A stretch of DNA of 64,000 bases from assembly GCA_001275005.1 (NCBI GenBank), contig JWZX01003320.1:1-64000 (forward strand), read 5' to 3'. The translations under genes and the position numbers were made by a program. This stretch comes from Chrysochromulina tobinii. Its lineage: Eukaryota; Haptophyta; Prymnesiales; Chrysochromulinaceae. The notes under the pieces are model-generated. The model was not told the DNA's origin. It ran no database searches and was given only the letters and a program-made list of their open reading frames with translations. Positions 1,316-60,611 of the stretch are shown one piece after another; the first letter of the stretch is position 1; each line of letters begins with the position of its first letter.

Positions 1316-3791
1316 ATGTCTGGACTCCTTTCGAGTGGACTGGCGGCCGTCACGGGGCCGCCGCGCGAGGTCATAGTGGAGTTGCTGCACGCCGCAGCGC
1401 GCGCACAAGGACTGGGCGCCTATCACCAGCTCGAGTACGCTCTCTCGACGGCCTCTGATGATTGTGTGTGCCGTTCGCTCACCAAGCTTGACGACGTCCT
1501 CACGGCGCTGGTGCATCGCGAGCTCGCGGAAGAGGAATGGGTGGTGTTGCGCCCTTCACGAGCTATCACTGCCCTGAACGCGGCCGTCTTCCGCAGAGGA
1601 CGTCCTGGTAGAGGGTTGCATCTAGATGCTTCGTCACCGTCCGACTTCGTGAGCTCGTACTGCACGCGGGCGGTCAAGGAGCGCCTTGTGGAGCGCCTCA
1701 GTCCGCAGTGCGACGCAGCGCTGTTGGACGCGCACGTGCAGCCAGTCAACCTGTGGATGCTTCTCGAGGGCGATCGGGCTCTGCTACTCCTCCCGGAGCG
1801 TCCCGCCCCGCAGACCGCGTACAGCGCTGGAGAGCTCGAGGCCGTGCAAGAGTCCCTCTGCGCCGCGTTGGCGGCGGGTGCGGACTCGCTGATGCTGGGC
1901 GCGTCGCTGTACCCGCATCGTCTCGAGCCCTCGCACGGGCAGCCGGCAGAGGCACGTGGCTTGCCGGTCCTCCTCTTCGACAGCTGCCGGCTCTACCACT
2001 GCGGGCTCTGTCCGCCCCCGTCGCCAGCGCCCACCACAGCGCTCCCGTCGGCGTCGCCAGCGCCCACCACAGCGCTCCCGTCGGCGTCGCCAGCGCCCAC
2101 CACAGCGCTCCCGTCGGCGTCGGCAAGGGACGAGGATGGAGATGGCGGCCGCGACTGCAGCGGCGGCGGCAACGGCAGCAGCAGCAGCGGCGGCGGCGGC
2201 ACAAGCAGCAGCGGCCGCAGCAGCCGCAGCGCTGACACGCCCAGCCCGGAGCCGCCCAGCACCGCGCCCAGCACCGCGCCCAACACAGCGCCCAGCACCG
2301 CGCCCAGCACCACGCCCAACACAGCGCCCAGCACCGCGCCCAGCACAGCGCTCAACAGCTGGAGTGTCGACTTCCGAACGATCGCCATCCGGCGCGCCGC
2401 CACGAGCTGGGCAGGTGGGCCATTGGATCTCGTCTGATGAGCTCTGATGCGCTCTGATTGCCTCCCTCATCATTGGATCTCGTCTGATGAGCTCTGATGA
2501 GCCATGATTGCCTCCCTCATCAGGTGGGCCGTTGGATCTCGTCGGGCTCGAAGAGTTGCTCTCCACCCCTACCACGCGGATACCTGGCTGTCGGTGGGAG
2601 GGCGGGATGATGACGCCGGCGCCGGCGCCGGCGCCGCTAGCGCCCACCACAGCGCCACCAGCGCCCAGCACAGCGCCGGCGGCGCCCCGAGACTCGACTG
2701 TGGGCGCTGTGGTGGGCGCCGAGGCCCCGTCGGCGGCGGTGGAGCTCGACTACGGGCAGCTCCTGTACCGCACGTACCAGGCGGTGCTGGGGGGAGTGAC
2801 GCTGCACTTTTGGGCGACGAGCGATTTAGAGGACGTCTGCCTGCCTGGGTGCGAGGTCGAGGCCTGCGCGCTGCCGCCGCCGGAGCCTCTCGATGCCGCA
2901 TTGTACGCGTATGACGACACGCCCGGAGAGAAGCTGCGCACGGGGATGGTCTTTGGACCAGTGGTAGCTCTGTGTGCCGCCCTCGACGCCCTACTGACGG
3001 CTCCCGAGCAGTCTCCGCCCGAAGTGACGGAACTGACGGAACTGACGGAACTGACGGAACTGACGGAACTGACGGAACTGACGGAACTGACGGAACTGAC
3101 GGAACTGACGGAACTGACGGAACTGACGGAACTGACGGCTCCTGAGCGGTCTCCGCAGACTGGTGCGCTAGGCAGCACGGCGCGTCGAGGCGGCGGCAGC
3201 GGCTTGCGGCTTCTCGAGCTCGGCGCTGGCGTGGGCTTAGTGGGCTTGTGGGCCGCAGCGAGAGGTGCCCAGGATGGCGCCCAGCGGATAGCCCAGGTGG
3301 TACTCACGGACCGCAACTCTGCCTCTCTCGAGTTGATGAGGCGCAACGCGGCCTTCTTTGCAGAACGCGCCACCACGGCAGCGCCCACCACGACAGCGCC
3401 CACCACGGCAGCGCCCATCGTGCAGGTGAGCGCTCTGGACTGGGCGGGGGCTCACCCTTCCTGGCTGGATGGCAGCTTCGATCTCGTGGCAGCATCGGAG
3501 GCCCTCAACGTCCCCGCCGTCGTGCCGCTCTTTTTTGCGACGGCGGCGGCAGCCCTGCGCGAGGGCGGGCGGCTAGTGCTCGCCATGCAAAGGCGCTCGG
3601 CATGGCGCTCGGGTGTGCTGCTGGGCCGCGAGGTTCTGCCAGCCGCCAAGGCGGTCGGGCTCGCACTCGAGACGCCCGAGGTGGACCTGCGGCAGGGCGC
3701 CGACGCCCGTGACGACGCCCGACTAGGGTGTGAAGCCCAAGCCACGGTTATCCTTACGTTCATCCTTCGTTGTAGAGTTCGAACGGGCTAG
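1316..3791 (+). CDS. two-exon class-I SAM methyltransferase (METTL/lysine methyltransferase-like)
   Basis: Exons 1316-2414 and 2524-3791; the 109-nt GT-AG intron is phase 1 on both sides and gives a 788-residue protein. The C-terminal third has the Methyltransf_16-type motif I (LRLLELGAGVGLVGLWAA), an acidic motif II position (VVLTDRN), SLELMRRN after it, and a motif-IV-like ALDWAG, as in the METTL21/FAM86 group that methylates protein lysines. The ~240-residue N-terminal region is soluble-looking and I do not recognise it. The centre is low complexity: three [11 protein letters not shown] repeats, a Ser/Gly run, Pro-Ser-Thr repeats and a TEL tripeptide tract (3025-3140). The target substrate cannot be named. 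The last residues after the Rossmann fold look complete. Confidence 0.75.
2020..2119 (+). repeat. three 33-nt in-frame tandem repeats inside the methyltransferase gene
   Basis: Unit encodes [11 protein letters not shown] and contains GCGCCCACCACAGCGCTCC, close to the GTGCTCACCACAGCGCTCC core of the introns in the aminopeptidase gene. Confidence 0.8.
2415..2523 (+). other. introner-like intron of the methyltransferase gene
   Basis: Starts with GTGGGCCATTGGATCTCGTC, a one-mismatch copy of the first 20 nt of the downstream exon (2524-2543). Two further tandem modules of TGATGAGCTCTGAT-type repeat end with CCTCCCTCATCAG. Confidence 0.85.
3025..3140 (+). repeat. 9-nt microsatellite-like coding repeat (TGACGGAAC, ~12 copies)
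   Basis: Perfect 9-mer array encoding Thr-Glu-Leu repeats in frame with the methyltransferase; likely polymorphic in length without breaking the frame. Confidence 0.9.

Positions 3792-60611: not shown

Follow-up and report, generated by a model that had tools for sequence, protein, structure and literature searches.

The survey of Gozashti et al. 2022 (PMC9860276) cites repeats of 3–9 bp for earlier introner families; for Chrysochromulina the value is 4 bp, and the introners of this alga are described there as carrying the donor themselves. According to the same text, introns must be similar in sequence close to both of their ends to be recognised in the survey, and families of low complexity are discarded. 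In Daphnia, the account of neointrons arising from staggered double-strand breaks (PMC4202315) mentions 33 exon-end repeats of 4–12 bp, and Rogers and Bendich 2025 (PMC11782384) give border direct repeats of 4–30 bp, with a mean of 11.4 bp, for 213 assorted introns. The open-licence literature searched, which covered titles and the starts of abstracts, yielded no report of haptophyte introners with duplications as long as those described below.

The DNA that we studied (the window) is a stretch of 64,000 nucleotides (G000:C2161:1-64000) of the Chrysochromulina tobinii assembly, which comprises 53.15 Mb in 2253 contigs. The nearest relative with an organism name of the Rpn5 encoded at 17165-18487(-) belongs to Haptolina brevifila (76%), and the aminopeptidase of the window has relatives in Prymnesium parvum at 59–64%, which points to a haptophyte, probably one of the Prymnesiales. 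From the rest of the genome 20 stretches of 8.5–10 kb were taken, on contigs in which GTAAGT, a pattern unrelated to the inserts, had been matched. The surroundings of the two main insert families, called A and B here, were represented by 40 stretches around matches to either of them, mostly clusters, and by another 40 around further single A matches; the near-identical loci L043 and L081 entered the counts twice.

The arrangement noticed at the outset, in which a copy of the first bases of an exon is followed by a short insert and then by the exon itself, is real and occurs genome-wide. In the window it is present in the methyltransferase, FkbM, K+ channel and aminopeptidase genes and in the region labelled as PEX1 (Table 1), while the LRR gene, which had been counted with them, fits it weakly, by a 14-base repeat 203 apart. 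In the methyltransferase gene a 20-nt duplication (2415-2434 / 2524-2543) flanks family B type repeats ending in ..CTCATCAG; the spliced frame stays open across the junction and the downstream exon matches Methyltransf_16. The reading frame of this gene also holds (GAACTGACG)13 at 3021-3138, translated as TEL repeats. The FkbM intron, upstream of which the FkbM domain is found, has a 30-nt duplication (16334-16363 / 16422-16451) around a family B insert at 16364-16421. The aminopeptidase exon start at 4750-4767 has its intronic copy at 4814-4831 and begins with CT, not GT. Joined on the minus strand, exons 7152-5086 and 4767-4090 give an open frame of 914 aa, whereas the unspliced frame stops at residue 733, and no gaps occur at the junction against 10 homologs.

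Table 1. Introns and inserts with flanking duplications in the 64,000-nt window
Feature	Position	Strand	Remarks
Methyltransferase-gene intron	2415..2523	+	upstream exon end 2414, downstream exon 2524
Aminopeptidase intron, tandem family A cores	4768..5085	-	copy of exon start
FkbM-gene intron	16334..16421	+	exon end 16333, next exon 16422
Hexamer insert	30633..30697		perfect 20-nt duplication, period 45
11-mer repeat insert, putative PEX1 region	44456..44604	-	30-nt duplication (44456-44485 / 44575-44604)
(TGTGAA)n hexamer insert	47232..47342	-	perfect 34-nt duplication
Family A insert, putative PEX1 region	47707..47834	-	40-nt duplication, starts GTGAGC
Family A insert, putative PEX1 region	48009..48096	-	19-20-nt duplication, starts GTGCCT
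K+ channel intron	57062..57520	+	upstream exon end in ~4 copies (57021-57315 array)
K+ channel intron, two inserts	57643..57791	+	junction 5
K+ channel intron	57921..58290	+	exon-end copies, then family A insert
K+ channel intron, family B repeats	58471..58725	+	18-24-nt duplication (58652-58669 / 58723-58740)
K+ channel intron, two family A inserts	58772..58932	+	35-nt host segment duplicated

An AAA-like reading frame was seen by eye near the 11-mer insert of the putative PEX1 region. The duplication around the (TGTGAA)n insert contains CAG|GTACGC, which may be read as an exon end together with its donor, and some duplications copy an upstream exon end (57620-57646, 47232-47265 and the 57892 array). 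Repeats of other kinds are also present in open frames of the window. A GGGTGG repeat at 41912-42009, flanked by a 35-nt duplication with a period divisible by 3, lies within a 1523-aa open frame; 69-bp tandem repeats in 11 copies (50197-50952) and 21 copies (52414-53892) lie inside long minus-strand open frames; and repeated units are present in an open frame at the window's end (62709-63998).

The model of the K+ channel gene consists of ten exons (55176-60612) with a joined frame of 1070 aa and no internal stop; several direct repeats flanking inserts lie at exon starts between 56462 and 58967, and 5 of the 9 downstream exons start with GT. The junction 5 intron contains a first insert with the upstream exon end copied (57620-57646 / 57695-57721) and a second, of family A, with the downstream exon start copied (57716-57742 / 57790-57816). 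In the intron at 57921 the family A insert comes with a duplicate of the start of the following exon (58210-58241 / 58294-58325), and in that at 58772 the host segment GTGATCC.. stands at both 58854-58888 and 58933-58967, while the intron at 57062 also holds three copies of the downstream exon start. The end of the gene and the sequence following it occur a second time in diverged form (~60520-61060 and ~61870-62450). Compared with 8 homologs the spliced model is continuous through its 9 junctions, the ninth being supported by one homolog, P0121, in which alone a recognisable continuation follows it; at junctions 2, 3 and 5 length differences from the homologs occur some residues away. The homologs P0121-P0123 measure 914–926 aa and come from contigs of ~3.2 kb, which therefore leave room for hardly any introns. 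Altogether 10 junctions in 2 genes, nine in the K+ channel and one in the aminopeptidase, agree with homologs. Since the spliced products match these proteins, the additional copies of host sequence are not part of the protein, and the homologs contain the duplicated segments once; splicing at these junctions is predicted from comparison of sequences.

The genome-wide search for the insert families that the original prediction had proposed as a check gave 611 exact copies of the family A core TGCAAGTGCTCACCACG (a 17-mer) and 991 of the family B end GATTGCCTCCCTCATCAG (an 18-mer), with no match to either pattern when reversed as a control. Both families carry a pyrimidine tract followed by CAG. 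Among 39 usable single A loci picked by the 17-mer alone, an acceptor motif stands at most 68 nt downstream of the core in 35 and on the antisense side in 8; one further single locus, L088, reads CCATAG|GT. When all A cores examined with their flanks are taken together, the acceptor is present in 87 of 110. Family A thus supplies sequence-similar introns at unrelated positions, as introners do. The description of the inserts as microsatellite-like suits family B and the hexamer tracts described below; it does not suit family A, which is a unit with a conserved core.

Intron gain by insertion with a long target duplication, as originally claimed, is supported across the genome for family A. A flanking host duplication (score at least 28) accompanies 66 of the 87 inserts with an acceptor, against 34 of 827 mismatched pairs in which each right side was combined with the left side of another locus; the remaining 21 inserts have no duplication above the threshold. 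Removal of arrays, multi-insert cases and late starts left 56 clean cases, in which the duplication ends 16–45 nt in (median 30.5), a wider range than the 18–35 nt first given. In 43 of these 56 the duplication starts at the base directly after the insert's CAG acceptor, in exact register with the splice site. The left copies of the 43 begin with GT in 38 cases, with GC in four and with CT in one, which supports the claim that the donor is duplicated host sequence. Of the 43 left copies, 24 have AG directly before them and 19 do not; the acceptor is therefore often supplied by the insert, again as proposed. The first 16–45 nt at the 5' end of the clean introns being a locus-specific host copy, these introns do not resemble one another from boundary to boundary. 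Donors of A and B introns fit GTRNG in 35 of 51 cases, as against 15.6% of background GT. The 43 introns are 63–95 nt long (mean 78.9, sd 7.4) and the length of the duplication is anticorrelated with that of the insert (-0.62), which, together with the narrow size range, is to be expected if a minimum intron size filters the survivors.

For family B the duplication is found in 46 of 76 cases and in 194 of 712 control pairs, the latter value being high because B repeats resemble one another. These statistics are weak for that reason, and family B therefore rests on clear single cases. Its 22 clean cases show the same register, with 15 at offset 0, of which 13 begin with GT. The hexamer (CATTCA)n, represented in the genome by 29 overlapping exact 26-mers, was read in 14 fetched stretches and in the window. 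Duplications of 19–41 nt accompany 11 of its 19 tracts (two of them forming one array in L115), six of the 11 with a period divisible by 3, while the other eight tracts have shorter, repeat-internal or no clear duplications. A wider scan for pairs consisting of a duplication of at least 17 nt and an unrelated spacer detected 15 of them in the window, and 184,463 bases of unselected stretches contained 26. Such pairs exceed chance, since shuffled sequence had none, and neither had E. coli K-12, of which 92,000 bases served as a bacterial control only. By insert, the 26 events comprise four of family A, five B-like and 17 others; 12 of these 17 have a period divisible by 3 and part of them may be ordinary protein repeats. 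An earlier unbiased scan of both strands with a strict filter, which retained 7 of 138 rows, was superseded by the wider scans.

The same inserts are also found in sequence where they are apparently not spliced. The stretch L036 (G000:C343:2000-3150) measures 1151 bases and can be read from end to end without a stop in one frame of either strand (383 codons). It looks coding, although the open frames and the codon usage, trained on four window genes, would fit either strand (0.148 and 0.142, a tie), and its minus frame matches no Pfam family. Eight A cores lie there in one orientation and one in the other, so that one or more must be antisense, no matter which strand codes. Read on the minus strand, the inserts translate as RRGEHLHA or VVSTCM flanked by repeated host peptides (GAAGMTISDE, PSTLPSA), and the duplication periods of 120, 60, 54, 60, 111 and 48 are all divisible by 3. 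For the opposite core, one scan returned a row with a period of 167, which reflects pairing between different copies, and another a short duplication with a period of 42. Short inserts that seemingly turned into repeated peptides in this manner are a possible source of new protein segments. In L028 two A copies with a period of 48 lie in an open stretch whose minus strand fits better, the copies being sense on that strand. Among the 23 A rows without an acceptor, the period is a multiple of 3 in 13; several of the remaining 10 resemble arrays lying within introns. The hexamer insert of L122 is clearly coding, with ELSIPV repeated around VNVNVN; loci L115, L117 and L118 are open and ambiguous in coding status, and L124 is not open.

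These in-frame A and hexamer cases have long duplications without a leading GT. The GT start of the intronic cases therefore probably reflects selection for spliceable survivors and not the choice of the target, since the same inserts sit unspliced, in frame, in both orientations and without leading GT. Duplications at acceptors with an apparently older donor, which also start without GT (4750-4767, 56226, 56563 and 57521), point to the same reading. The view that insertions sit at AG|GT-like proto-splice sites proved too strong, AG preceding the left copy in little more than half of the cases counted above and non-GT copies existing in L036 and L028; target choice at AG|GT as the sole cause was rejected on account of the unspliced copies in coding-like sequence.

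It is likely, in our judgement, that very short mobile or copied sequences insert via staggered breaks and that those landing in sense orientation with GT become introns. The inserts would enter the genome through breaks staggered by ~16–45 nt, and the filling-in of the stagger would duplicate the host sequence on both sides. Where an A or B insert landed in sense in an exon and the duplicated stretch started with GT, the left copy would serve as the donor, the insert would provide a branch-site-like motif, the pyrimidine tract and CAG, and splicing would then restore the original message. The remaining landings would survive mainly inside existing introns or with the frame kept. As for the break itself, the fit is best for a long stagger whose filling-in enclosed a short piece of captured DNA; this model is ranked first, since it accounts for the length range, both orientations and the unrelated inserts; we regard the odds for it as about even. 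More tentatively, and with doubt prevailing, a single long-stagger insertion process might seed new introns, in-frame peptide segments and microsatellite tracts alike, and may copy pieces of existing introns. The introns described here would then be 3'-half introns with a host-made donor, merely the spliceable survivors of that process, and the copying of intron pieces would make introns self-propagating without transposon ends.

A somewhat unlikely explanation, yet the strongest competitor of the filled-in break, is target-primed reverse transcription, whereby a short RNA, such as an excised intron's 3' half or LINE copies consisting of the tail only, would be copied into a nicked target with the second nick 16–45 nt away. 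The variable, long duplications of family A are of the kind left by non-LTR retrotransposons, and the genome contains at least 26 reverse transcriptase matches. The form of the inserts also agrees with such an origin: the 3' end CCCCACAG is conserved in 45 of the 56 clean cases, the distance of the variable 5' end from ATGCAAG spans -1 to 24 nt among 31 cases of high identity, and some longer copies have B-type sequence upstream. However, splicing would select a conserved 3' end too, and the unspliced A copies in L036 and L028 lack that end. Nor does a donor element appear at the 6 of 26 reverse transcriptase loci examined, where the A, B, 10-mer and hexamer motifs were not found within 2.5–3 kb downstream; three of these six downstream stretches have no tandem repeats.

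Known transposases leave a fixed short target duplication. The duplications of family A vary from 16 to 45 nt, which disfavours a cut-and-paste transposase, and inspection by eye shows no inverted relationship between its ends, GCATGC.. and ..CCCCACAG, in agreement with the initial remark that no terminal inverted repeats were seen. Movement of short DNA transposons (ordinary introners or MITEs) by a transposase is consequently quite improbable, despite the resemblance of multi-copy intron families to known introners (PMC9860276). It is very improbable as a general explanation that exon segments containing AGGT were simply duplicated in tandem and that the middle later decayed into repeats. 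AGGT duplication is a described route to introns (PMC3443670) and boundary arrays are common here (57021-57315, 46255-46396); for single arrays this explanation may apply. Shared inserts at unlinked loci oppose it for family A: the same multi-copy middle recurs there while the host copies are at least 92% alike in 31 of the 56 clean cases, and the AG that a duplicated AGGT would provide as one of the two splice sites is frequently lacking before the left copy. An artefact of assembly or of polymerase slippage in GC-rich repeats, which a draft of 2253 contigs and 129 tandem-repeat rows in the window might suggest, is extremely improbable, as two genes match their homologs only with the inserts removed and the left copies bear substitutions of their own.

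A viral origin of the inserts was considered and rejected. The family A 20-mer matches one viral contig, L065, which is phage-like and probably chimeric. The match lies just before the end of this contig, whose last 200 bases (L065:4350-4554) carry an A intron of algal type together with a 10-mer insert and its duplication. A 22-mer of family B had no match in viral contigs and a 22-mer of family A none in bacterial and archaeal contigs, in searches from which records near the genome of the window were possibly left out.

Under the conditions of the main introner survey as set out in PMC9860276, the intron class found here would be missed, its footprint being discarded twice over, for the host-specific 5' end and for low complexity; intron gain may therefore be underestimated. 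The length of the duplication means that every event records the empty site and, via divergence of the copies, its own age. The unspliced in-frame copies in the same genome would furthermore let insertion bias be told from splicing selection, the separation of which is a long-standing difficulty in work on the origin of introns.

The comparison with described systems places these inserts closest to introners. Like the introners described in genes of mostly aquatic eukaryotes, they are multi-copy sequences that would create introns, and the case of Fig. 2B in PMC9860276 likewise has the acceptor from the element and the donor from the duplication; the difference is that here the first 16–45 nt of the intron are host sequence. 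The introner elements of Amoebophrya (PMC7789003) also have direct repeats at intron borders, but these are given as 3–5 nt, with inverted repeats of 8–20 nt. As in our cases, the end of the exon adjoining a Daphnia neointron (PMC4202315) recurs as a direct repeat on the far side of the intron, whereas here the median is ~30 and two families have copies in the hundreds. In PMC11782384, too, direct repeats on or close to the borders between introns and exons were taken as insertion scars; ours are longer and in splice-site register, and the inserts are shared. In introns formed by tandem genomic duplication (PMC3443670; PMC4974935) a duplicated exon segment also gives splice sites and the message is restored, as is predicted here, but both sites are described there as coming from the duplicated AGGT, while here the acceptor comes from the insert. 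The end joining of staggered breaks (PMC5730883) similarly yields small duplications from protruding ends, sometimes with inserts, which in that account are local, other genomic or plasmid DNA and not recurrent repeat families. The intron gain in this genome is thus introner-like, but its footprint is longer and the roles of host and insert are shared out differently, and in that respect it is new.
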